Virus record (IMG/VR): IMGVR_UViG_3300023223_000028
Span: 1-35,636 of that record
DNA from: a virus
Direction: 5' to 3' (one strand)
Length of the DNA stretch: 35,636 nucleotides
Shown here one piece after another: positions 3,492-35,636 of the stretch. A program made the translations under genes and the position numbers. Within the stretch, counting starts at the first letter, position 1. Each line of letters opens with the position of its first letter. The notes beneath the pieces are model-generated. The model did no database searches and was not told the DNA's origin. It saw only the letters and a program-made list of their open reading frames with translations.

Positions 3492-6159
3492 TTTTTACAT
3501 AGAAACACCGCAAGGTAATCTTGACATTAAAGAGGGGTTCGGGTTTGGGATTAACATCTCAATTGCTGAATTATTAGATGTAAGTAAAAAGAACACCCCA
3601 TATACTAAGACAATTCTATTGCCTGGAACAAAGGCGAATAACCAAATACTAGGCAGTTTGTTTGATGTTAATGCGGACTTTACTTTTTTCAACCCTAACT
3701 TTAAGATTGACGCTAAGATTGTTGTAAATAGCACTACAGTAATAAATGGATACTTACAGTTGTTAGAGGTAAAGAAATTAAATGATAACGATTTACAAGG
3801 CAATAACATACAATACTCTGTAAAGATTTCAGATAACGTAATAAATTTTTATACTGACATTAAAGACAAGGAGCTAACAGACTTAGACCTTTCTGATTTC
3901 GACCACATACTTACTAGGACAAACATTGAGGGAAGCTGGACGAACACCTTTGAGGATACTTATACTTATCCGTTGCTTTTTAAACAATCAAACATTTATC
4001 AAACTTCAGATTTTAAGCCTGCTATATTTCACAAGGCTTATTTGCTAAAGATATTTGAAGAGGCTCAATATTCTGTAGGTGGTTCGTTTATGAATAACAC
4101 CGACTACGATAAAGAGACTATACCATTCAATAGAGAAGCTAACGTAATTGACCAAACAGAAGTAGATAGAAGAAAATTCTTTGCAGGAGCTACAGGAAAT
4201 ACTTATCCAACAATTATATTAACTGGAGGAGGCGCAGGAGGAGACATTAACGACATAGCTCCTTTCACATCTTTAGACGATGATAGTACCCCTCCATTCT
4301 TTGATAATGCTGGCGTTTGGAATACAACAACAAATTCATACACAGCAGACAGAAATGGAACATACGAACTAAAGGGTACTATAGGCTTTGAGATTGAATG
4401 GAATAGCGGAGGGTTAGATGCTTATATGTATGGTTACGACTTTACTGATCCAGCACTTGGGGAGAAGTTTGTACAATTAAACAGACCGCTTAATAGGTAT
4501 GAGGTTAGAATGAGAATGTTTAAAAACGGTTCTAAAGTATTAGATTATATTAGTCCGACTTTAGACTTCGCAAAGTCTACTGGAGTAGGATTAACTTTTG
4601 ATGCTGGTAATTCGTGGACTGTTTCACAAAACGCAGTAGTTGACATTAATCAAACGGGACTAAACCTAATTGCAGGAGATGTTATTACGTTTGACTATCG
4701 AGTGTTTACTTTCCAATTTGCAAAATATACTACAAGCGCAACGCTGGGGGCTGGTTCTGATGTTCCAGTTAATTTTATAGTTAGCGTTGATAATAATAAT
4801 GTTACTACTAGTTTATTTAATACGCCTTTATCAGGAATACTTACAGACGATGATTCGGTAGTGCTTAATTCTTTTATTCCTCAAGATATTAAACAAAGCG
4901 ATTTAATAGATGATATTGTAAAGCGTTATAATTTAGTAATAAGAACAGACAAAGATAATTCTAAAAAATTACTAATTGATACTAAGGACGATTATTATGA
5001 TGCTGGAGTAAGTTTAGATTGGACTGACAAAAAAGATTATAGTAACGAAGATAGTATTAAGTTTTTAGCTGACTTACAGAATAAGGAAATGATTTTATCC
5101 TATTCGCAAGATGATGATATTTACAATGAAAAATATACAGAATCAATAGACGGGGTAGAAATTTACGGACAAAAGAAGATAGAGTTTGATAATCAATTTG
5201 TAAAAGGAACACAGAAAATAGAAACCAAATTCTCTCCAACTCCTTTGGTTTATTCTAGCCCTAATAAAGAGATGGTGTTGCCGTTTATAAGTACAGTTTT
5301 AGAAGATGTTAACATTCGTGTTCTTTATTATGGCGGTCTTATCAATTGTTTAGGAACTGCAAATTGGTCTCTTGATTCTGTTGATTCGGGAGTTCCTACA
5401 TCTACAACTTACACTACCTATCCATACGCTGGACATTTTGATAATCCAGTTACGCCAACAGTAGATATAAATTTTGGATCAAATAGTTACCACTTTTATA
5501 ATGAGTTGTTAAATACAACAAGCAACAATCTATACAATACATATTGGATAAATACCATTAGACAAATTGCAGAAGGTAAGCTAATCACTTCTAAATTTGA
5601 TTTAACAGAAGTTGATATTGCTTTTATTATATTTAATTTGAATGCTGAGATATTTGTAAAAGATAGTTACTACAGAATAAATAAAATTATTGACTACAAT
5701 CCTTTAGAAGATGGACTAACCAAAGTAGAGCTTGTTAAGATTATAGAAATAAAGCAAATTGCAGAAGAAGACCCATTTGTAGATTCTAATCCAAATGTAG
5801 ATGTTATTTCAACAGAAACTTCTTTAAGTGGCAACATTAGCAATTCAGTAAATACGGTTGTAGCTGGTTCTAATAATTACATAGGTTTTAATAGTGAGGG
5901 AGCAATAGTTACAGGAGAAAATAATACAGTAGGGAACGAGGTAGAAAATAGTTCTATTGTTGGTGGTGAAGGGAATGTTATTGAAAGCGGATTAGAGAAT
6001 GTTTCAGTTATAGCGTCTAGTGATTTAACGATTACCAAAAGCAATACAACAGCAGTAGGAGGATTAATAGAAAGCGAAGGAACAGGTGCGGAGTCTTTAG
6101 TTATAGAAGTTCCAACAGGCATTAAAGCAAATCAAAATAATTTAACAGGATTTAATTAA
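3484..6159 (+). CDS. Large tail tip/adhesin protein with C-terminal beta-roll
   Basis: The largest protein here, 891 residues. The N-terminus carries PQGNLDIKEGFGFGINISIA and a segment containing TKTILLPGTKANNQILGSLF then DVNADFTFFNPN, a block that I recognise from tail proteins of Bacteroidetes phages. The middle contains beta-rich domains and a glycine run (TGGGAGGDIND). From about residue 790 the sequence becomes a series of short strands of the form N-S-V-N-T-V-V-A-G-S, GENNTVGNEVENSSIVGGEG, resembling the beta-roll head of trimeric autotransporter adhesins. The combination suggests a distal tail protein presenting a trimeric adhesive tip. Overlaps neighbours by 8 nt and 1 nt. Confidence 0.55.
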   Translation: MDNFYIETPQGNLDIKEGFGFGINISIAELLDVSKKNTPYTKTILLPGTKANNQILGSLFDVNADFTFFNPNFKIDAKIVVNSTTVINGYLQLLEVKKLNDNDLQGNNIQYSVKISDNVINFYTDIKDKELTDLDLSDFDHILTRTNIEGSWTNTFEDTYTYPLLFKQSNIYQTSDFKPAIFHKAYLLKIFEEAQYSVGGSFMNNTDYDKETIPFNREANVIDQTEVDRRKFFAGATGNTYPTIILTGGGAGGDINDIAPFTSLDDDSTPPFFDNAGVWNTTTNSYTADRNGTYELKGTIGFEIEWNSGGLDAYMYGYDFTDPALGEKFVQLNRPLNRYEVRMRMFKNGSKVLDYISPTLDFAKSTGVGLTFDAGNSWTVSQNAVVDINQTGLNLIAGDVITFDYRVFTFQFAKYTTSATLGAGSDVPVNFIVSVDNNNVTTSLFNTPLSGILTDDDSVVLNSFIPQDIKQSDLIDDIVKRYNLVIRTDKDNSKKLLIDTKDDYYDAGVSLDWTDKKDYSNEDSIKFLADLQNKEMILSYSQDDDIYNEKYTESIDGVEIYGQKKIEFDNQFVKGTQKIETKFSPTPLVYSSPNKEMVLPFISTVLEDVNIRVLYYGGLINCLGTANWSLDSVDSGVPTSTTYTTYPYAGHFDNPVTPTVDINFGSNSYHFYNELLNTTSNNLYNTYWINTIRQIAEGKLITSKFDLTEVDIAFIIFNLNAEIFVKDSYYRINKIIDYNPLEDGLTKVELVKIIEIKQIAEEDPFVDSNPNVDVISTETSLSGNISNSVNTVVAGSNNYIGFNSEGAIVTGENNTVGNEVENSSIVGGEGNVIESGLENVSVIASSDLTITKSNTTAVGGLIESEGTGAESLVIEVPTGIKANQNNLTGFN

Positions 6160-7349
6160 TGGCAAGCGCACAGGGTATAAACCCAGACATAATATTTAAC
6201 TTTAACGAGAATAACGCTACTACTATACGTGATTATTCTGAAAAAGGAAACGATGGAACAGGTACAAATTTAACGGTATCTGCTACTGATAGGACAGTGG
6301 GTTATGATGCTGTTTTTAATGGCATAGACTCAGAGTTAAATAGTACTATATCAGCTATTGATGATTCTTTTACTATTGCCCTAGCTATTAAACTACAAGC
6401 AAATACTGATATAGATTACATTTTTGATATAGACGGGGGTGAGGTTTTTTGCGATTGGGATGGCACGTCAATCTTGTTTTCTTTAGATACTGGAGATGGT
6501 ACATTTACACTAGAATGGAATTTAGACGTTGATATATGGTATGATATAGTATTAAAGTTAGATGATGCTACTGGTAAAATGTATATTATAGTAGATAGAG
6601 TTACAGTTATAGATAAAGCTGTAACAGGAATATTCTCCCTTTCTAATGCAGATATTGAAATAGGGCATAGCAGTAGTACTAGTCATGGTAAATTCTTACT
6701 AAATGAATTTAAGCTATTCCAAGACCAAGATACAACTACGATTGATGACGGGTTTATAGATGAGCAAAACGGTGTATTGGTTACATCGGGCAAGGTACAC
6801 GGGTTTGATTTAGGTGATATTATCGGTTACAATCCAACACTTGTAGACGCTTCTTATGCTATTGTAACATTTGTAGGATCAACAACACAATATAGAATAC
6901 AGCCAATATCTGACAACATAACTAACGGCATGGTATTCAAGCGTTGCGGTAACGTATGGAACACAGATAGGCAGTGGATGCTTTTAATAGACAATACCCC
7001 TCAAGTGTGTTTTTACGATGGTATAACACAAAGTAGTGAGGTAGGAATAGATAGTAAGAAAACTTACTGTATGGGTTTAAGCGGATTAATAAATCCGTCA
7101 GTAGGTAAAACAGACGATTACACACTAACAAATGAAGATCATACAGTTTACTTAACGGGGTCAACTGCTAAAACGTTTACTATGCCAGCAGCACCAACAG
7201 ATGATAATGAGTGGAACATTATTAATTTAAGCACAGCAGTTTTAACGATAGCAGCAAGCAGTATAAATGGCGCAAGCACACAGAATCTAATTAGTAAATA
7301 TGATTCAGCACAAATAAAGTATATTAATAGTGAATTTGTTATAAAATAG
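6159..7349 (+). CDS. LamG/concanavalin-like putative receptor-binding protein
   Basis: Protein of 396 residues. Residues 8-190 read as a LamG/concanavalin A-like jelly roll: an IIFNFNENN start, GNDGTG, AVFNGIDSEL, FTIALAIKLQ, WYDIVLKLDDATGKMYIIVD and an IEIGHSSSTSHGKFLLNEFK ending. Such domains bind carbohydrates in many phage fibres. The C-terminal 90 residues (DDYTLTNEDHTVYLTGSTA, AKTFTMPAAP, STAVLTIAASSINGA) form a short-strand domain common at the ends of phage fibres. It follows the large tail tip genes with one base of overlap, as expected for an adhesin. Substrate is not determinable. Confidence 0.6.
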   Translation: MASAQGINPDIIFNFNENNATTIRDYSEKGNDGTGTNLTVSATDRTVGYDAVFNGIDSELNSTISAIDDSFTIALAIKLQANTDIDYIFDIDGGEVFCDWDGTSILFSLDTGDGTFTLEWNLDVDIWYDIVLKLDDATGKMYIIVDRVTVIDKAVTGIFSLSNADIEIGHSSSTSHGKFLLNEFKLFQDQDTTTIDDGFIDEQNGVLVTSGKVHGFDLGDIIGYNPTLVDASYAIVTFVGSTTQYRIQPISDNITNGMVFKRCGNVWNTDRQWMLLIDNTPQVCFYDGITQSSEVGIDSKKTYCMGLSGLINPSVGKTDDYTLTNEDHTVYLTGSTAKTFTMPAAPTDDNEWNIINLSTAVLTIAASSINGASTQNLISKYDSAQIKYINSEFVIK

Positions 7350-7355
7350 AAAATT

Positions 7356-8129
7356 ATGAGTAGTATATTAAATAGAGACTTTATAATCGAGGTCAACAAA
7401 GGCAATATTGCAGGGCATAGAATGGTTGGAGTTGTATCATCTAATGAAGCCGTAGGAACTACATTTGCAGACATTTGGAGTGGTGGAGGTGATTTAGTGT
7501 ATCAAACAGGAGGCGAGACTTTAGAATTAGTATTTGCAGATGCTAATGACACAGCAGCAGGAACAGGGGCGCAAGAAGTTACTATTGTATCAATGGACGC
7601 AACAGGAGTAGAGCAAACAACTGTTACAGTGTCAAACGGGGGGACGGCTGCCGTATCAGGAACACACTATGACATTCAAAGCATTAATGTTACTGCTGTA
7701 GGAACGGTTAGAGGTGGGAATATTGGAGATATTACATTGCAAGTTTCTGGAGGAGGAGAAGTTAGGGGGAAGATTTTAGTGGGCAAAATGTCATCACAGA
7801 GTAGTCATTATACAGTCCCTTTAGGATTTACTGCATTATGGATAGAGGGATTTGCAAACTCTGTAAAAGGAGAAGATACACAAGTAAGACCATTGTTTCA
7901 ATTTGGAGGAACTGGCGTTTTTAATCAAGGCGGAACATCTAGCACTTATCAAGGTCACTTACTTTACCCTTTTAAAACATTTTTAGTAATGCCCGAAAAA
8001 TCAAGAATATTACAACAAGCAAAAAGTACAAATACAAATGTTAATATAACGTCAGTAAACGAATTTATGTTAATCGAGAATGCATTAGTAAGCATGTCTT
8101 TATCGGCATTAAATATGTGGGCAACATAA
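7356..8129 (+). CDS. Phage structural protein of the marine-phage 'GTGAQEV' type
   Basis: Protein of 257 residues, Gly/Thr/Val-rich. Segments such as TTFADIWSGGGDLVY, ANDTAAGTGAQEVTIV, MDATGVEQTTVTVSNGG, SSHYTVPLGFTALWI and VRPLFQFGG are the landmarks of a structural protein frequent in marine phages, in which a GTGA(R/Q) core is followed by YTVPAG-like and RP strands. It is thought to be a virion component; its exact site is unknown to me. It begins 6 nt after the LamG protein and precedes two small tail-region genes. Confidence 0.6.
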   Translation: MSSILNRDFIIEVNKGNIAGHRMVGVVSSNEAVGTTFADIWSGGGDLVYQTGGETLELVFADANDTAAGTGAQEVTIVSMDATGVEQTTVTVSNGGTAAVSGTHYDIQSINVTAVGTVRGGNIGDITLQVSGGGEVRGKILVGKMSSQSSHYTVPLGFTALWIEGFANSVKGEDTQVRPLFQFGGTGVFNQGGTSSTYQGHLLYPFKTFLVMPEKSRILQQAKSTNTNVNITSVNEFMLIENALVSMSLSALNMWAT

Positions 8130-8143
8130 AAAAACGTAGAAAA

Positions 8144-8455
8144 ATGATAAAAACAGAAAGAACAAGAAACACAAACGACGACCCTAATCATGGGACTGTA
8201 GATGTTAATTCGAGTACAGCTCAGACTTTGGTTGCTGCAAATCCAGACAGAATAGGATTGACCGTAAGCAATCCACACAATCAAGGGCTTTGGATTCGTC
8301 CATATCCTGCTAGTGATGACAATGACGAGGTAGGAATTTATTTAGCACCTAATCAACCGCCTTACGAAATAAAGGCAGACAACATTATAACAACAGAATA
8401 TAGTATTATTATGAATCAGGGAGGGACAAAAACAATACCTTTCGTAGAATATTAA
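8144..8455 (+). CDS. Small structural-region protein
   Basis: Protein of 103 residues from ATG 8144. A longer version could start at ATG 8117 inside the previous gene, but 8144 follows an A-rich leader typical of this genome and avoids a nine-residue mostly basic extension. Sequence landmarks are STAQTLVAANPDRIGLTVSN, LWIRPYPASDDNDEVGIYLA and the end MNQGGTKTIPFVEY. The NxxR-xGLxVxN core with a later polar strand resembles small beta-sandwich proteins that phages place beside fibres and head fibres. No function can be assigned. Confidence 0.6.
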   Translation: MIKTERTRNTNDDPNHGTVDVNSSTAQTLVAANPDRIGLTVSNPHNQGLWIRPYPASDDNDEVGIYLAPNQPPYEIKADNIITTEYSIIMNQGGTKTIPFVEY

Positions 8456-8458
8456 GAC

Positions 8459-8731
8459 ATGGCAAATTTAGTAATAACAGTAGATGGAAATAGATTTAAA
8501 GTTACATCAAACGATGTTTACACAGGGTGGGATATTGATTATATTTGGTCTCAAGACATTGAACACGTAACACAAAATGGAACTGTAGTACTTTCTTTTC
8601 ACGATGAGCGCGACCCATTCGAAATGACACACGATGGTAGTGATGGAACTTGGGAAGTAGATAGTATTAACGGAACTACAATAACAAGTAATTCACAACT
8701 TGCTACATTAATAGCAAACCTGAAAGGTTAA
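8459..8731 (+). CDS. Small tail-region protein, unknown
   Basis: Protein of 90 residues with an N-terminal strand (NLVITVDGNRFKVTSND), a central TVVLSFHDERDPFEM and a helix at the end (TSNSQLATLIANLKG). It is acidic and has no membrane segment. It starts 3 nt after the previous stop and is the last gene before the late-promoter-like motif at 8731-8761, so it probably ends the first late transcription unit. Similar small proteins occur near tail genes of Bacteroidetes phages, but I cannot name a function. Confidence 0.55.
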   Translation: MANLVITVDGNRFKVTSNDVYTGWDIDYIWSQDIEHVTQNGTVVLSFHDERDPFEMTHDGSDGTWEVDSINGTTITSNSQLATLIANLKG

Positions 8732-8761
8732 ACACTTAGGTATAATTAACTTATAATAATA
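8731..8761 (+). promoter_or_regulatory. Candidate phage late promoter, copy A
   Basis: AACACTT at 8731-8737 and TTAACTTATAATAATA at 8746-8761, start-to-start 15 nt. The same two-part motif lies ahead of 11563, 14299 and 35406. It does not match the host-type TAnnTTTG promoter used in the early region. The downstream gene begins at 8783, leaving a leader of roughly 15 nt if transcription starts just after the motif. Confidence 0.55.
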
Positions 8762-10891: not shown

Positions 10892-11536
10892 ATGGAAAAG
10901 AAACCACTAGTAATCGAAATGTTAGTTTCAGAAGAAAACGAAACAGGAGTAGATATAATTTCTTTTGTTGAGAATCCAGCAATTGAAGTAGACTTTATGT
11001 TTTTTAAAGGTGAAACTAAAAGAGAATTTAAAACAACCTCAGAAGAAAAGAGAATAGTTTGCGGTGCTGCTATGATTCCTAATGAAAAGATAATCCGATT
11101 AGACGGAAACAATGAAGAGTATTTTGTTTTCTTTTCTGAAGATACAATCCGCTTATGTAATGAGATGTATTTTAAAAACGGCAACAATGTAGGGGCTAAC
11201 CTAGAACATGAGACATCAGTAACAGGAGTAACGGTTGTTGAAAGCTGGTTAATAGCAGATACAAACGTAGATAAGGCTGTTGCTTTAGGGTTTAAGGATT
11301 TGCCAGTAGGAACATGGATGGTAAGTTACAAAGTAGACAACGATGAAGTATGGCAACAAGTAAAAGCTGGTAAAGTTTTAGGCTTTAGTGTAGAGGGTTT
11401 ATTTGGACAAAAGAAAGTTGAGCTAAGTAAAGAGTTTACAGAAGAAGACTTAAAGGAATTGCTTAACAGCGACATTTCAGACGATGAAAAGCTGGCTAAG
11501 ATACGAGAAAAAATGGAACACTTAAATAATAATTAA
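10892..11536 (+). CDS. XkdF-type putative prohead protease
   Basis: Protein of 214 residues of the XkdF family (putative phage serine protease). Recognised from its ordered landmarks: GVDIISFVENPAIEVDF, VCGAAMIPNEKIIR, YFVFFSEDTIRLCNEMYF, NLEHET, VTVVESWLIADTNVDKA, LPVGTWMVSYKV and GKVLGFSVEGLFG. Such proteins lie next to the scaffold and major capsid genes and are thought to process the prohead; here scaffold-like and capsid genes follow directly. Residues 190-214 form a charged helix. I do not assign individual catalytic residues. Confidence 0.8.
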   Translation: MEKKPLVIEMLVSEENETGVDIISFVENPAIEVDFMFFKGETKREFKTTSEEKRIVCGAAMIPNEKIIRLDGNNEEYFVFFSEDTIRLCNEMYFKNGNNVGANLEHETSVTGVTVVESWLIADTNVDKAVALGFKDLPVGTWMVSYKVDNDEVWQQVKAGKVLGFSVEGLFGQKKVELSKEFTEEDLKELLNSDISDDEKLAKIREKMEHLNNN

Positions 11537-11548
11537 CTTATATTAATA
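11517..11548 (+). promoter_or_regulatory. Candidate phage late promoter, copy B
   Basis: GGAACACTT begins two bases before 11517 (AACACTT 11517-11523), followed by TTAACTTATATTAATA at 11533-11548, start-to-start 16 nt. The upstream half overlaps the end of the protease gene. The GGAAC sequence is the classic -35 core of ECF-sigma promoters, which makes this copy the most persuasive of the four. It would drive scaffold and capsid synthesis from a leader of about 10 nt. Confidence 0.6.
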
Positions 11549-12241: not shown

Positions 12242-13141
12242 ATGAGTTTAGATTTAACAGCCTTAACGGTTTACACAGATGAAAACAAAATGGACTTGAT
12301 AAGAGCATCCATTTTAAAAGGGAAAACAATCTCTTTAATAACAGTACAGCCAGACATTAAGTCAAGCGCTGCAATCAACATCTTATCTTCTACTGGAGTT
12401 TGGCAAGCTGGAGCTTGTGGTTGGAATCCTCAAGGCTCTACCATATTAAGTCAAAGAGACTTAGCCGTTGCAGACATTAAGAAAAATGAAGCAATTTGTT
12501 TGAATGATTTAGAGGCGTATTACACGCAGTCAATGATGAAAGCAGGAAGTTATAACGAAGAAATTCCTTTCGAGCAAATGTACTCAGAAGAGTTAACAGA
12601 GCAGACTTCTAAAATGGTAGAGGATTTAGCATGGAAAGGTGATACTGGCGGAGCAGGACAGCTAGTTTATACTGACGGTTTAATCAAGTTGATTGATGCA
12701 GAGGGCGCAGTAGTAACAGGAACGGCTTTAGCTTTAGATGCAGCTAATATTATAGATGCTTTTGACGAAATGATTGCAGCTATTCCAGCAGATGCAATTG
12801 ATGCTGACGATTTAACTTTGTTTTGTGGGCATGACACTTATAGAACTTATGCAGCAGCATTAAGAAACGCTAACCTATTCCATTACGATGGTAAAGAAGG
12901 AACAGATTTTGAAATGGTTGCACCTGGAACTAACGTAAAAGTTGTAGCGGTAAGTGGATTAACAGGAACGGCTAGAATCTTCTTAGCAGAAGCGTCTAAC
13001 TTATTTGCTGGAACTGACTTATTGAATGACGCAGAGCAATTTAGAATCTTTTACTCTGAAGATAACGATGAGGTAAGAATCTTACAAAAATTCAAAATTG
13101 GTTTCCAAATGGCTTTCCCAGCGAGAATCGTTTCTAACTAA
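12242..13141 (+). CDS. Major capsid protein, HK97-like
   Basis: Protein of 299 residues. Position after protease and scaffold, length, and landmarks fit a major capsid protein: an N-terminal extended arm, the mid-protein QMYSEELTEQTSKMVEDLAW helix (spine helix) followed by GDT, a helix with IIDAFDEMIAAIPADA, the LTLFCGHDTYRTYAAALRNA stretch, then VKVVAVSGLTG and the C-terminal FKIGFQMAFPARIVSN. A strong terminator follows at 13158, as expected for the most abundant transcript. The fold assignment is by context and pattern; the role is secure. Confidence 0.8.
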   Translation: MSLDLTALTVYTDENKMDLIRASILKGKTISLITVQPDIKSSAAINILSSTGVWQAGACGWNPQGSTILSQRDLAVADIKKNEAICLNDLEAYYTQSMMKAGSYNEEIPFEQMYSEELTEQTSKMVEDLAWKGDTGGAGQLVYTDGLIKLIDAEGAVVTGTALALDAANIIDAFDEMIAAIPADAIDADDLTLFCGHDTYRTYAAALRNANLFHYDGKEGTDFEMVAPGTNVKVVAVSGLTGTARIFLAEASNLFAGTDLLNDAEQFRIFYSEDNDEVRILQKFKIGFQMAFPARIVSN

Positions 13142-13157
13142 TTAAATTAAATAATCT

Positions 13158-13194
13158 AAAAAAGGCTACTGCAAAAATGTAGTAGCCTTTTTTT
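13158..13194 (+). terminator. Rho-independent terminator after major capsid gene
   Basis: The arms GGCTACTGC (13164-13172) and GTAGTAGCC (13179-13187) pair over nine positions with one G-T wobble around an AAAAAT loop, followed by seven T. It begins 17 nt after the capsid stop. Flanking A and T runs extend the stem, so it could also work in reverse. It would limit readthrough into the 13209 gene. Confidence 0.85.
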
Positions 13195-14228: not shown

Positions 14229-14266
14229 TAAACCCTGCTATTTATTTAGTGGGGTTTATTGTTTTT
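14229..14266 (+). terminator. Rho-independent terminator after tail tube gene
   Basis: Arms AAACCCTGCT and AGTGGGGTTT pair over ten positions with two G-T wobbles around an ATTTATTT loop, followed by a T-rich tail (TATTGTTTTTG). The hairpin separates the tail-tube gene from late-promoter-like motif C just downstream, marking a boundary between transcription units. Confidence 0.75.
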
Positions 14267-14268
14267 GA

Positions 14269-14299
14269 AACACTTGCTTTTTTTTAACTTATATTAATA
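14269..14299 (+). promoter_or_regulatory. Candidate phage late promoter, copy C
   Basis: AACACTT at 14269-14275 and TTAACTTATATTAATA at 14284-14299, start-to-start 15 nt. It directly follows a terminator, which supports a promoter role. The motif ends on the A of the first possible ATG (14299), so either the transcript is nearly leaderless or translation begins at the in-frame ATG 14338. Confidence 0.6.
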
Positions 14300-14466: not shown

Positions 14467-14860
14467 ACTAGAACCGCTTACAGCTAATAATGTAGTAGTT
14501 ACTTTAACGGAGTTAGCAACATTAACTACTCCTTATTATCTATTTGAATTTATTAACGATAGTTCAAACGAATCTAAGATATTTACAGCAGCCAACATAA
14601 GCACTTCTAAGAGTAGATATGATGAGTTTGTTATAACTACAACAACTGGAGCAGAAAACTTATTAACGGGCGTTATAGACTTAGAAACTAAGGGTTATTA
14701 TAACTATAACATATACGAGCAAGTAAGCCCTACTAATTTACTCCTAGCTAATATCACTTCATTAGTAGAGGTTGGCAAGGTTTACTTTAATGATGCTGTA
14801 AAACCAGTTAAAAAAGACTATACGGATCAGAGCAATACTAGAAACGTTTACAATGGATAA
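14459..14860 (+). CDS. Conserved head/tail-region protein, beta-rich
   Basis: Protein of 133 residues. Landmarks are VVVTLTELATLTTPYYLFEF, NDSSNESKIFTAANISTSKS, YDEFVITT, GVIDLETKGYYNYNIYEQ and a C-terminal RNVYNG. I recognise this as a small beta-sandwich protein that recurs in Bacteroidetes phages, usually near portal or connector genes, with 'YYLFEF.ND' and 'GYY.Y.IYEQ' as its signatures. It has no experimentally assigned function that I know of. Overlaps both neighbours by 8 nt, indicating coupled translation with the portal. Confidence 0.6.
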   Translation: MIRLEPLTANNVVVTLTELATLTTPYYLFEFINDSSNESKIFTAANISTSKSRYDEFVITTTTGAENLLTGVIDLETKGYYNYNIYEQVSPTNLLLANITSLVEVGKVYFNDAVKPVKKDYTDQSNTRNVYNG

Positions 14861-16043
14861 GGAGAAAAAAGAAAATAAAGTTAATCTATTTACTTTTGGT
14901 GCGGGTAGTGATTTAAACACTCCAGTATTCAGAGAATCTAAAGCTGAATGGATTCCTTACGGAGACAAAAACAACTACGATGTATATTTAATTGACTTAC
15001 TTAACACAAGCTCTAAACATAACAGCTTAGTTAAGAAGAAAGTTAATATGACTGTAGGTAATGGATTCAAAGAGACTCCAGAAAACAAAGAGTTTATTGA
15101 TAACTCAGCAGGAAAAGACGACTTAAATACAATAGCCTTTAAGAATGGTTACGATTTAATGGTTTACGGTGGCTTTTGCAAGATTGTAACCTGGAGTAAA
15201 GACAAAAAAACCATTGCTAGACAGACGTTTATAGGATGGGACAAGGTTAGAATAGCAAAAGAGGTTGAAGAGAAGGACAATGCAGAGATGTTTAAGCGTC
15301 AACAGGACGGGGTTGTATTTTATTACATGAGTGCAGACTGGACGCAACCTAAAAAAGATAAGAATATTCCTGTATTAATTCAAGGGTTTAGCGAAAAGTA
15401 TAAAGATGAAGCCACACAGTTAGTTTACGAGGCGGAGTACAGACCTTCAGTAGACTATTACACTTACCCAGATTACATTAGTTCGGTAGATTGGATTGAA
15501 TTAGACAAAGAAATAGCCAACTTTCATTTATCTAGTGTTCATAATGGGTTTACCCCTTCAATGGTTATTAGTTTCAAGGGTGGTATTCCTTCAGACGAAG
15601 AGCAAAAGTTATTAAACAGAAAAATACAGAAGCAATACGCAGGAAGTTCAAACGGCTCTAAGGTATTTACTACATTTAGTGAGAACGCAGAAACAGCACC
15701 AGAGTTTACCCCTATTAATTTGAATAGTTCTGACGAAAGATTCTTACAACTAGAGGAACAAATACAACAAAACATTGTTATTGCTCATGGAGCTACTCCT
15801 ATTGTGGCTGGCGTTGCAATTGCTGGTAAGCTAGGTAGCTCTGACGAAGTAATAGAGGCTGAAATGATATTCCAAAAGAATGTTATTGATGCTAAACAAA
15901 CATTAATAGAGCGTAGTTTTAATGAGATAGCTAAAATTAACGGAGTAGAGCCTTTAGAATTAGAAGGTATTAAATCATTTGACGCTCCAGTAGTAGCAGT
16001 AGAAGAACCAGAACCTAAAATTATAGAAGATGCCAACGAATAA
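14853..16043 (+). CDS. Portal protein
   Basis: Protein of 396 residues of the HK97-like portal type. It forms the dodecameric channel at the capsid vertex. Landmarks: NTSSKHNSLVKKKVNMTVGN (early helix), YDLMVYGGFCKIVTW, WDKVRIAKEVEE, the long HNGFTPSMVISFKGGIPSDE segment, EQKLLNRKIQKQYAGS, and the IVIAHGATPIVAGVAIAGKL segment preceding a C-terminal helix with ERSFNEIAKINGVEPLEL. The last 25 residues are acidic and Pro/Glu-rich. It lies downstream of the capsid gene, not between terminase and capsid, so gene order is unusual. Confidence 0.8.
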   Translation: MDKEKKENKVNLFTFGAGSDLNTPVFRESKAEWIPYGDKNNYDVYLIDLLNTSSKHNSLVKKKVNMTVGNGFKETPENKEFIDNSAGKDDLNTIAFKNGYDLMVYGGFCKIVTWSKDKKTIARQTFIGWDKVRIAKEVEEKDNAEMFKRQQDGVVFYYMSADWTQPKKDKNIPVLIQGFSEKYKDEATQLVYEAEYRPSVDYYTYPDYISSVDWIELDKEIANFHLSSVHNGFTPSMVISFKGGIPSDEEQKLLNRKIQKQYAGSSNGSKVFTTFSENAETAPEFTPINLNSSDERFLQLEEQIQQNIVIAHGATPIVAGVAIAGKLGSSDEVIEAEMIFQKNVIDAKQTLIERSFNEIAKINGVEPLELEGIKSFDAPVVAVEEPEPKIIEDANE

Positions 16044-18780: not shown

Positions 18781-18789
18781 AAAATAATT

Positions 18790-19023
18790 ATGAAAAACAT
18801 TTTAAAAGTACTAGGATTAACAGGAGAAAAAGGATTGATTGGTTTAATATCTGAGAAGACAGGTAAGATCAGTTTTAAGCGTTCTGCTGCAATAATGTTA
18901 ATAACTGCTGTAGCTATACCAGATTACTTAGCTAATGGCTTAACTTTGTATAATATGGCTTTAATGGTTGGCTGTTTAGCTACTGTAGCACTACCTAAGA
19001 TATTTTCTAAGGATTCTGAGTAA
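18790..19023 (+). CDS. Holin-like small membrane protein
   Basis: Protein of 77 residues with two hydrophobic stretches (AAIMLITAVAIPDYLANGL and YNMALMVGCLATVALPKIF) separated by a short turn, and charged termini (KTGKISFKRS and FSKDSE). Two short membrane segments immediately downstream of an endolysin are characteristic of class II holins. It is the last gene before the terminator at 19051, so it closes the late transcription unit. Family not identifiable beyond topology. Confidence 0.6.
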   Translation: MKNILKVLGLTGEKGLIGLISEKTGKISFKRSAAIMLITAVAIPDYLANGLTLYNMALMVGCLATVALPKIFSKDSE

Positions 19024-19050
19024 CATCAATATTTTCTATTTAACTATTTA

Positions 19051-19080
19051 AAGCCACTCATTAACTTGGGTGGTTTTTTT
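19051..19080 (+). terminator. Rho-independent terminator ending the late region
   Basis: Arms AAGCCACTC and GGGTGGTTT pair over nine positions with two wobbles around ATTAACTT and are followed by a run of T. It lies 27 nt after the holin-like gene and insulates the late block from the early promoter 55 nt downstream. Confidence 0.85.
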
Positions 19081-19093
19081 ATGTCTAATAATC

Positions 19094-19144
19094 AACTAGT
19101 TAAGTACTTATTTCAATAATACTTATTATAATAGTTGTTATAAT
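19094..19144. promoter_or_regulatory. Cluster of palindromes at the early promoter (operator candidate)
   Basis: Three dyads in 51 nt: AACTAGTT (19094-19101), overlapping TAAGTACTTA (19101-19110), and the inverted repeat ATTATAA / TTATAAT (19125-19131 and 19138-19144) whose 6-nt spacer contains the TTG of the early promoter. TACTTATT is also directly repeated (19105-19112 and 19120-19127). Such overlap is what a repressor site looks like; no repressor gene is recognised in the window, so a host or unrecognised phage protein would have to bind. Confidence 0.5.
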
Positions 19145-19164
19145 GAATATTATATCTATCTTTA
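19135..19164 (+). promoter_or_regulatory. Early promoter, Bacteroidetes type
   Basis: TTG at 19135-19137, a 19-nt spacer, and TATCTTTA at 19157-19164, matching the TTG-N19-TAnnTTTG consensus except for the last base. Transcription would begin near 19170, 18 nt before the ATG at 19188. This rules out the longer start at 19143, which lies within the promoter. It is the only promoter I see at the head of the early block. Confidence 0.75.
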
Positions 19165-19187
19165 CATTATATTTAAAACTTAAACAC

Positions 19188-19499
19188 ATGATTACATTAA
19201 CAGGATTTGATTTAACAGAAACAAAAGAGCCATTCAGTTATGAATTAAGGGGTGACTTTGATGGCTTCTTGGAAGAGGGGTTTTATATTGAGTGTTTTAT
19301 TGATTGCGAAGAAAAAGAAGTGGGCAGTATTGATGAAGAAAATAATGATGATTCAACAGGTATAGAGGTTAACGATATTACTTTTTGGATGTTTACAATA
19401 AAAAACACAGCCAATGAAGAGGTAAACTTTAGCAGTCAAATAATTAGAGAGATTAAAAACGATTTAGAAAACGAAATAATTAAAACTTTAGAAAAATGA
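19188..19499 (+). CDS. First early gene, unknown acidic protein
   Basis: Protein of 103 residues from ATG 19188; an in-frame ATG at 19143 lies inside the promoter and is rejected. Strongly acidic, with landmarks MITLTGFDLTETKEPFSYEL, FYIECFIDCEEKEVGSIDEE and the helix SSQIIREIKNDLENEI. The first gene expressed by phages often blocks host defence or regulation, and an acidic DNA-mimic-like composition is compatible, but I have no sequence match for such a role. Overlaps the next gene by four bases. Confidence 0.6.
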   Translation: MITLTGFDLTETKEPFSYELRGDFDGFLEEGFYIECFIDCEEKEVGSIDEENNDDSTGIEVNDITFWMFTIKNTANEEVNFSSQIIREIKNDLENEIIKTLEK

Positions 19500-31904: not shown

Positions 31905-31912
31905 TATATTTG
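31905..31912 (+). promoter_or_regulatory. Host-type -7 element for sigma-like gene
   Basis: TATATTTG, exact match to TAnnTTTG, 8 nt before the ATG at 31921. The upstream -33 element is weak (no TTG at the expected position). Given the usual spacing the transcript would begin almost at the start codon, so the sigma-like mRNA may be leaderless. Confidence 0.5.
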
Positions 31913-31920
31913 TCTACTAG

Positions 31921-32475
31921 ATGATAGAAGACATTTATTTAGATGATTTTTATAAAGGGTTTTGCCTTAAGCTAGTAAAAGATAAAGTAAAGGCAGAGGA
32001 GCTACATAGTGAGTTTATAATTCTAGTAATAGAGTTCGACAAAAACAAACTCAAACAGTTAATAGAGAACAACGAGTTTAAGTATTACGCAGTATCTATA
32101 ATAAGAAACCTAGCATTTAATAAGTACTCTATCTACAACAAGAACAATAACAACTTATTTAACGAAGAGATCAGCGACAACATAGAAGAGGAAAAAGAAG
32201 AAGCCGAATATTTAGAAGAGAAAGAAACAAGCAATTTATTAGCGTGTGTAAAAAGAAAACTACAATACGATGCAGACAAATCAACTAACGAATGGTATCA
32301 AAGCAATGTATTTTTATTATACCACACTAAGTTTAAGAGCTATAGAAAGATGAGCCAGGAAACTAAAATACCAGTAGCATCTCTTTACAACTCAGTACAA
32401 GCAACAACAGAAAAAATAAAGAACCTTTACGAAGACAGATACAACAAGCTAATTAATGACAATAGAGTATATTAA
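31921..32475 (+). CDS. Putative phage-encoded ECF-like sigma factor
   Basis: Protein of 184 residues, about the size of ECF sigma factors. Residues 10-72 resemble region 2 (a helical YKGFCLKLVKDKVKAEELHS segment, then EFKYYAVSIIRNLAFNKYSI, the part that in sigma factors recognises and melts the -10). An acidic linker follows (EEEKEEAEYLEEKE). Residues 138-170 (KSYRKMSQETKIPVASLYNS) look like the helix-turn-helix of region 4, which reads the -35. The divergent sequence lowers certainty. It follows a host-type promoter and precedes the packaging genes, a position suiting a middle-to-late switch. A different DNA-binding regulator remains possible. Confidence 0.55.
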   Translation: MIEDIYLDDFYKGFCLKLVKDKVKAEELHSEFIILVIEFDKNKLKQLIENNEFKYYAVSIIRNLAFNKYSIYNKNNNNLFNEEISDNIEEEKEEAEYLEEKETSNLLACVKRKLQYDADKSTNEWYQSNVFLLYHTKFKSYRKMSQETKIPVASLYNSVQATTEKIKNLYEDRYNKLINDNRVY

Positions 32476-33367: not shown

Positions 33368-33640
33368 ATGGCAGATAAGAACGGTAATAAAACAGGAGGC
33401 AGAACAGTAGGGACTAAGAATAAGGTAGATTCTAAGACTAAGCTATTCTACGCTGGGTTAATAGAAAAGAACCACGCTAAGATAGAGAAGGAATTAGACA
33501 CATTAGAAGGTAAGACATTTATAGATGCTATTAATAGCCTATCAGAATACTGCCTACCAAAGTTATCAAGGGTAGAAGTAGAAGGAGAAATAGACGCTAC
33601 CTTATTTACAATAGGGTTTGGAGAAACTAAAAAGGATTAG
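33368..33640 (+). CDS. Terminase small subunit candidate
   Basis: Protein of 90 residues. The N-terminal GGRTVGTKNKVDSKTK is the glycine/lysine-rich 'GRPKGxKNK' start characteristic of small-terminase-like or related DNA-binding phage proteins in Bacteroidetes; the rest is helical (LFYAGLIEKNHAKIEKELDT, SLSEYCLPKLSRVEVEGEID). It is two genes upstream of the large terminase, where the small subunit often lies. It is shorter than typical small subunits (about 150 residues), so an accessory role is possible. Confidence 0.45.
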   Translation: MADKNGNKTGGRTVGTKNKVDSKTKLFYAGLIEKNHAKIEKELDTLEGKTFIDAINSLSEYCLPKLSRVEVEGEIDATLFTIGFGETKKD

Positions 33641-34150: not shown

Positions 34151-35374
34151 TTGCCAAAAATAGAATTATACACACCTCATCGACATCAAAAACCTATACA
34201 TACCTCCTGCAATGATTCTACCTCCTTCTTTATATCTGTAAACGCAGGAAGACAATCAGGCAAGACAGCACTATCACAACAACAAGCATTATATTGGGCT
34301 ATAGATAAACCTAAAGTAATAGTATACTGGGTTAGTCCTACACAATCACAAGTATCTAAAGTCTACAAACAAATACTAGAAATGGTTGTTGAAGTTCCTA
34401 TAACTAAATCTTATAAGGGAGCAATGGGAGATACTGAAATAGTATTTAAGAACGGTAGTCAAATCAAGTTTAGAAGTGGAGCGCAAGAAGATAGCTTAAG
34501 AGGTGAAACAATCGACTACTTAATTATAGATGAAGCAGCCTTTGTAAAACAATCAGTATTTCAGGAGATATTATTGCCGATGTTAAACGTTAGGGGTAAG
34601 AAGTGTTTATTAATATCTACACCCAAAGGTAAGAACTGGTTTTTCCATCAGTACCAAAGAGGGTTAGATTCTGATGCCTTGTACAAATCGTTTAAGTTTA
34701 CCAGTCAAGATAATCCGTATAGTAATATGGAGATTATCAAGATAGCAAAAGACAACCTACCCGACATATTATTTAGACAAGAGTACTTAGGTGAGTTTGT
34801 AGATAGTGCCGCCATATTTGAAAACCTAGAAGAGTTAAGTGTTGTTAATATGCTAGACGATCCAAACAAAGATGATATGTATTTTATAGGTATTGATATT
34901 GCTTTGAAGGATGATTACACAGTAGTTAATATTATCAATCAACACGATGAAGTAGTTTATTATGATAGGTTTAATCAAACAACCGCCCCCGATTTAAAGG
35001 ATAGACTAATAAAGATATTCGATAAGTGGACTCCTAAAAAGATAATGATAGAAGAAAACAATCAAGGGCTTCCAATATTACAGGACTTAAAGAAAGCAGG
35101 GGTTAAACATTTGGTAGGATTTAAAACAACAGCACCAAGTAAGCTACATATTATTAACAATCTAATCAATGCATTTGCAAGTAAGACAATCAAAGTGCCT
35201 AACTGTGATACTTACAAGAGTGAGTTAGAAGTATTTGAAATGACTATAAGCCCAAACGGACAACCTAAGTTCTCAGCACCATCACCTTTTCATGATGATA
35301 TTCCTATGAGTCTAGCAATAACATGGGAGTGTAAAAACAAATATAAATACTCAGGACAATACAACTTCATATAA
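34151..35374 (+). CDS. terL: Terminase large subunit
   Basis: Protein of 407 residues. Motor domain: Walker A NAGRQSGKT (residues 31-39), Walker B LIIDEAAF (124-131), and the coupling segment ISTPKGKNWF (155-164). Nuclease domain: FIGIDIALKDDYTVV (near 243-257), KIMIEENNQGLPIL, and FHDDIPMSLAI near the C-terminus, giving the acidic active-site set. The start is TTG: an in-frame TAA ends immediately before it, and the family N-terminus (YTPHRHQKPIH) is complete only from this codon. It packages DNA into the prohead, cutting concatemers. The position after the candidate small subunit fits. Confidence 0.92.
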   Translation: MPKIELYTPHRHQKPIHTSCNDSTSFFISVNAGRQSGKTALSQQQALYWAIDKPKVIVYWVSPTQSQVSKVYKQILEMVVEVPITKSYKGAMGDTEIVFKNGSQIKFRSGAQEDSLRGETIDYLIIDEAAFVKQSVFQEILLPMLNVRGKKCLLISTPKGKNWFFHQYQRGLDSDALYKSFKFTSQDNPYSNMEIIKIAKDNLPDILFRQEYLGEFVDSAAIFENLEELSVVNMLDDPNKDDMYFIGIDIALKDDYTVVNIINQHDEVVYYDRFNQTTAPDLKDRLIKIFDKWTPKKIMIEENNQGLPILQDLKKAGVKHLVGFKTTAPSKLHIINNLINAFASKTIKVPNCDTYKSELEVFEMTISPNGQPKFSAPSPFHDDIPMSLAITWECKNKYKYSGQYNFI

Positions 35375-35404
35375 ACAGATGATAATAATTAACTTATATA
35401 AATA
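35374..35404 (+). promoter_or_regulatory. Candidate phage late promoter, copy D
   Basis: AACAGAT at 35374-35380 (AACA shared with the other copies) and TTAACTTATATAAATA at 35389-35404, start-to-start 15 nt. The ATG at 35406 follows two bases later, so a transcript starting here would be essentially leaderless. It would begin the tail part of the late block. Confidence 0.5.
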
Positions 35405-35405
35405 G

Positions 35406-35636
35406 ATGCAACAGACTATTAAAGTTCCTACAAGCTGGGAGGACATAACGGTAAATCAATACCAACTATTAAACACCATCAAACGTGAGGCGTTTAAAAC
35501 TGATTTAGAATATACTACTGCTTTGGTTAATATTCTTTGCCATACAAACGGTAAGGATTTAAAGGTTGAAGCACTAAATGAAATAGCAGGATTAATAGGG
35601 TTCTTATCAAAGGAGCTAAAAGCCGAGAGAAAAGAC
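35406..35636 (+). CDS. Tail assembly chaperone-like protein (5' part; continues at 1)
   Basis: The start of the gene that continues across the contig junction to 603, or by -1 frameshift to 650. The N-terminus MQQTIKVPTSWEDITVNQYQ is like the 'VPTSWxDITVxQY' start that I recognise in chaperone-like tail genes of Bacteroidetes phages, which supports the frameshift assignment at 390-396. The frame is uninterrupted into the repeated 144 bases. It lies 31 nt after the large terminase stop and 2 nt after motif D, without a normal leader. Confidence 0.65.
   Translation, partial: MQQTIKVPTSWEDITVNQYQLLNTIKREAFKTDLEYTTALVNILCHTNGKDLKVEALNEIAGLIGFLSKELKAERKD
35493..35636. repeat. Terminal direct repeat, right copy
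   Basis: Identical to bases 1-144. See the left copy: the overlap closes the genome into a 35,492-bp circle. Confidence 0.95.

Follow-up and report, generated by a model that had tools for sequence, protein, structure and literature searches.

A terminase-linked ECF-type sigma factor and four candidate late promoters in an uncultured phage of a probable Bacteroidota host

The window analysed here is the whole 35,636-nucleotide stretch of IMG/VR record IMGVR_UViG_3300023223_000028. It carries an exact 144-nt direct terminal repeat (1-144 = 35493-35636); the record is a whole circular assembly, and the late genes therefore carry on across the record ends. Virion genes extend from the window start to about 18.8 kb and resume from the terminase large subunit gene, terL, across the ends. 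The recombination and replication genes (Erf, Gam, DnaD-like, NinG and NinB) lie at 20-27 kb, followed by small genes, then the gene of a sigma-like protein, P0001, and then terL, 1.7 kb downstream of the sigma gene. The host is likely a member of the Bacteroidota, because NinG has its best isolate match in Olleya phage Harreka_1 (44% identity), Shine-Dalgarno-like words occur at 16% of gene starts vs 17% at any ATG, and A is favoured at -3 of the starts (60% vs 41%). A lack of Shine-Dalgarno sequences at gene starts has been reported for Bacteroidetes (PMC6847099). The features relevant to the mechanism are as follows.

8729..8761, + strand: late promoter candidate 2, AAACA-N17-TATAAT, before gene 8783
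11516..11548, + strand: late promoter candidate 3, AACA-N18-TATATT, before 11563 and the virion-protein gene 12242
14229..14258, + strand: hairpin with a T tail resembling an intrinsic terminator, immediately before candidate 4; a transcription-unit boundary
14267..14299, + strand: late promoter candidate 4, AAACA-N17-TATATT, before the portal block (14459, 14853)
31905..31912, + strand: TATATTTG, a weak TAnnTTTG match and candidate host-read promoter, 8 nt before the sigma ATG
31921..32475, + strand: P0001, ECF-type sigma-70-family protein of 184 aa by profile, fold and family evidence; region 2 at about 9-75, acidic linker at 78-105, region 4 at about 122-178
33368..33640, + strand: small protein ahead of terL, without a match among profile families; from position alone, possibly the small terminase subunit
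34151..35374, + strand: terL, terminase large subunit (Terminase_6N, E 1e-19), conserved downstream neighbour of the sigma gene
35372..35404, + strand: late promoter candidate 1, AAACA-N17-TATATA, between the terL stop and the next ATG (35406)

A reading of the DNA from sequence alone had described a 184-residue protein at 31921-32475 with a region-2-like segment, an acidic linker and a region-4-like helix-turn-helix. The coordinates and length are right, the ORF starts with ATG, and all three parts are present in the AlphaFold model (mean pLDDT 86). The region 2 helices span residues 2-7, 9-19, 22-38, 41-49, 53-66 and 71-75, and those of region 4, which include the helix-turn-helix, 122-138, 141-148 and 152-179. 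A low-confidence stretch, 83-96, lies inside the acidic linker (EEISDNIEEEKEEAEYLEEKE). The model thus has the region 2 helices, linker and region 4 helix-turn-helix of an ECF factor, with region 3 absent. The structure prediction and profile search that the sequence-only reading had called for both point to a sigma factor: sigma factors lead the Foldseek lists of both structure models, P0001 and a relative, and the family profile aligns with ECF sigma factors along almost its whole length.

The top 33 Foldseek matches of the P0001 model are sigma factors, headed by an ECF factor (probability 0.99, E 0.035). A relative with a short linker is modelled with both domains confident (pLDDT 93); about its top 40 matches are sigma factors, again with ECF first (probability 1.00, E 0.003), and its region 4 superposes at 1.9 Å on that of sigma-E in complex with -35 DNA. 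No Foldseek E-value falls below 0.001, since a flexible joint leaves the two domains free in their relative orientation. Searched alone, P0001 matches Pfam Sigma70_r2 at E 0.05 with 13.8 bits, below the curated cut-off of 24, which is an annotation threshold and not a biological feature. It also matches PHROG 1740 (E 2.7e-4); this match was rejected as proof of sigma identity, as the profile also matches 14 of 14 control genomes, archaea included. Taken together, the profile, fold and family evidence assigns P0001 with high confidence to the ECF type of the sigma-70 family.

The family was assembled from loci gathered by terminase alone, all ORFs of which were then screened for members. Used as a single sequence, P0001 found nothing in viral contigs; tblastn of P0001 and three relatives detected no homologue in 50,697 isolate-phage records; and in genome contigs the search yielded nothing but distant terminases, in MAGs of Lokiarchaeota and Zixibacteria. 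Clear relatives were found by phmmer (L007, E 1e-27; L008, 1e-11; and others), and the iterated profile converged on about 40 proteins. Thirty of the 36 terminase-fetched loci that extend 4.5 kb or more upstream of terL contain a member, 0.8-7 kb upstream of terL and on its strand in 29 of the 30, although near-duplicates reduce the loci to fewer independent lineages, perhaps twenty. The sole member on the opposite strand (L031 2440-3051, minus) lies 7 kb from terL.

Against the PDB, the family profile finds SigW best (E 1.6e-10, profile positions 11-171 of 175); a reduced profile, with outlying members removed, finds sigma-H (7e-5) and SigW (1.3e-4). At E <= 0.05, Pfam region 2 is matched by 7 of 36 members (best 5e-6) and region 4 by 6 of 36 (best 4.5e-5). 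In the alignment, the place of the DLVQE-type motif of sigma region 2.2 is taken by a stretch of the [DE]-[DE]-L-x-x-E type; a helix resembling region 2.3/2.4 follows, then a linker that is acidic or variable, and finally the C-terminal helix-turn-helix. Mean column identity is 19% with no invariant residue, a divergence that would suit an inactive or anti-host sigma mimic which occupies core RNA polymerase and shuts off host transcription. Such a role is very improbable, as the family retains region 4 and is accompanied by promoter-like elements specific to each phage.

Some loci depart from the simple arrangement. L016 has paralogous members 1.1 kb apart (6098-6649 and 7786-8361), the first nearer to ordinary ECF sigma factors; a middle and late pair is possible. 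L004 has two sigma-like genes (2009-2692 and 3796-4371), one of them a PHROG 351 sigma (E 5e-10), and the family member of L004/G001 is borderline (E 4e-4). The family matches G017 18789-19235 and G029 3909-4385 contain an in-frame TAG or TGA, for which recoding, decay or sequencing error are possible.

The repeated two-part motif that the sequence-only reading connected with P0001 is real and was recovered de novo. An unbiased repeat search returned 33-nt repeats at 8729, 14267 and 35372, and a pattern search added the fourth copy at 11516. The site consists of AAACA, 17-18 nt, and TATAWT inside TTAACTTATAWTAATA, with AAC 15-16 nt before the core. The core, TTAACTTATATTAATA, is the genome's most repeated 16-mer (at most one mismatch), with four copies vs a maximum of three in 30 shuffles. 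In leave-one-out weight matrices each site ranked fourth of 70,984 positions, right behind the three training sites; the sites scored 18-28 bits and the next non-site at most 11. Genome-wide and on both strands there are exactly four sites, all on the coding strand. Four full-motif matches in viral contigs were discarded as chance from their context and the absence of family members.

As the sequence-only reading had proposed, the motif goes with late genes and an AAC-centred upstream box. All four sites stand at the heads of late (virion) gene blocks; with about 11 of 28 upstream gaps late, the chance of this is P ~0.02, modest alone. The block from 8783 includes a virion protein and a protease, and the virion-protein gene at 12242 probably encodes the major capsid protein. 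AACA is found at a fixed offset in 4/4 sites (P ~5e-4). An AAC-containing -35 box is typical of bacterial ECF sigma promoters.

Regulators of the RinA, ArpU, Ltr and Q kind are without region 2 and act with the host sigma. P0001 shares with them its position, between the replication/recombination genes and the terminase, and its presumed role, and could be a late activator or antiterminator that aids or modifies the host holoenzyme at one late promoter. Phage_antitermQ is matched weakly by 3 of 36 relatives (best E 0.011), the Q-like PHROG 79 by four (best E 0.012), and complexes of the antiterminator AlpA rank low among the Foldseek matches of P0001. However, these Q-type matches are far weaker than the full-length ECF match, which takes in region 2, and profiles of phage antitermination protein Q left P0001 unmatched. 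Four dispersed promoters, rather than one site, suit a sigma factor, and the host TAnnTTTG box is absent from all four sites. Despite the genome position, which is that described for Ltr/RinA (PMC13123087), such a regulator is distinctly improbable, and a sigma factor remains the preferred reading of P0001.

A segment following terL recurs before other genes of the same phage, with a sequence that differs per phage. In several relatives, a segment of the post-terL gap is found again in three or more other gene-upstream gaps of the genome concerned. Recurrence P values are.005 for the window, G001 and G005,.010 for G009,.015 for G007 and.025 for G006. The repeated post-terL elements of the relatives are:

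L004/G001: TACAATATTTAAAAA
L011/G005: AAACTAT-N-AAGTATTTATAAATA
L012/G006: ATATTTATA
L013/G007: TAATATATAA
L016/G009: AAAACA-N-ATATCTAT

In the distant relative G009/L016, AACA stands at an identical offset before ATATCTAT in 4/4 sites (P ~5e-4). The G006 and G007 elements are weaker and may partly be AT-rich start context. G018 has a repeated element in one of two settings only; a clear one was not seen in G008, G016, G023 and G027, which have a gap after terL, and several relatives have no such gap. The G001 motif is not assignable to one sigma, because a borderline family member and the second, PHROG 351 sigma gene coexist; copies of the repeated element of this relative, TACAATATTT, are also arranged as a divergent pair, at G001 24629 (minus) and 24663 (plus). 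In these AT-rich genomes, the sharing of 8-mers by post-terL and other gaps for the most part fell short of significance, and 16-mer repeats were uninformative in most relatives; longer weighted segments are needed to show sharing among gaps. Terminators look enriched ahead of motif sites (7 of 31 vs about 0.5 expected at random positions), but this was set aside as evidence because the random positions were not matched for intergenic location.

That P0001 reads the motif, as first proposed from the window, is supported because the relatives' diverged sigma proteins accompany different elements at the same place. This link between protein and motif is indirect, and P0001 could be a sigma while the motif is read by a host alternative sigma or a repressor, or is a translation-start context. 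TATAWT -10 boxes are generic, one site scoring 10 of 12 vs the consensus of E. coli, and at one site a mere 2 nt separate the end of the core from the ATG. But the core-to-ATG distance varies among the sites while the AACA spacing is fixed, the two-part sites are genome-unique, and the start context of window genes is another motif, AAATAAATTATGAAAA. Moreover, a fixed host factor would not give an element whose sequence changes between phages while its location stays the same. Recognition by something other than P0001 is on these grounds unlikely.

The preferred interpretation is that an ECF-type phage sigma, consisting of regions 2 and 4 only, probably sends the host core to the four two-part late promoters. 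We infer that the protein binds core and recognises these promoters, the timing of these steps, and that a host promoter serves the sigma and packaging genes. The sigma gene would be switched on mid-infection by host polymerase, probably from the weak box ahead of it, which matches the flavobacterial primary-sigma -7 box (PMC9723704). The host-type -7 element of the sequence-only reading is indeed present there, but it is weak and the pattern is not enriched genome-wide (46 found vs 53 expected in the window). The sigma and packaging genes may share one transcript, since no terminator-like site was found from 30 kb through terL. The sigma protein would then bind host core RNA polymerase, where the sequence-only reading had it replace the host sigma late in infection, and the complex would go to the sites with AAACA as -35 and TATAWT as -10. 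From there the four promoters would start the virion gene blocks. The sigma gene is upstream of the packaging genes, as the sequence-only reading had noted, but no copy of the motif stands ahead of terS/terL or the sigma gene. The first copy follows terL, and late expression of terS/terL is not accounted for by the motif.

Known phage sigma factors provide the closest parallels. SaPh711_gp47 of Salmonella phage 7-11 makes host core read bipartite late promoters, in few copies per genome, with the consensus GTAAtg-16-aCTA shown by in vitro transcription (PMC8948821). Here too a phage sigma is combined with a few bipartite promoters upstream of late genes, but the phage is uncultured and the AAACA-17-TATAWT promoter is known from sequence. 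phi32_gp36 of phiEco32 is a phage sigma with its own middle/late promoters; its relative gp47, at 15% identity, has a different motif at similar positions (PMC8948821, PMC4331800), as is the case between the phages compared here. The gp36 promoter is a single element, tAATGTAtA, explained by the lack of region 4 homology (PMC8948821, PMC4331800), whereas region 4 and a second promoter box are present here. By analogy, P0001 most likely works like gp47 and gp36. With SigW, SigH and SigE it shares regions 2 and 4, the absence of region 3 and a full-length profile match; unlike bacterial ECF factors, its sequence is very divergent and an anti-sigma gene was not identified adjoining its gene. Flavobacterial ECF promoters have a CGT-type -10 box (PMC9723704), unlike the AT-rich -10 box of the window sites.

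A sigma-plus-promoter pair, which the sequence-only reading had considered novel, is of a kind already known from phiEco32 and 7-11. What is new here is a probable phage late sigma system in a lineage without a detected isolate homologue of the sigma; a defined late-transcription system for a Bacteroidota phage was not found in the literature searched. We tentatively suggest, with slightly less than even confidence, a terminase-linked late sigma family that is undetected in isolates and widespread in uncultured, probably Bacteroidota, phages. Each member would have its own -10 element, with the AAC-type -35 kept in some, giving mutually orthogonal sigma/promoter pairs. Such pairs could become tools for orthogonal expression in Bacteroidota, and the way in which protein and promoter diverge in pairs among relatives is a data set on the evolution of sigma specificity. 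With four promoters, all sharply defined, the small sigma lends itself to direct tests in vitro.

Three further observations concern the gene content of the window. The portal profile phrog_33693 is matched by 14853-16043 and 1089-1592, at profile positions 126-346 and 443-507, respectively; these are far apart on the genome and may reflect a shared domain or a split portal. A hairpin (GGCTACT...AGTAGCC) with a T run lies at 13164-13194, directly 3' of the probable major capsid gene (12242-13141). The DNA methyltransferase ORF at 21676-22320 matches only the interior of its profile (54-170 of 327) and may be truncated or split.
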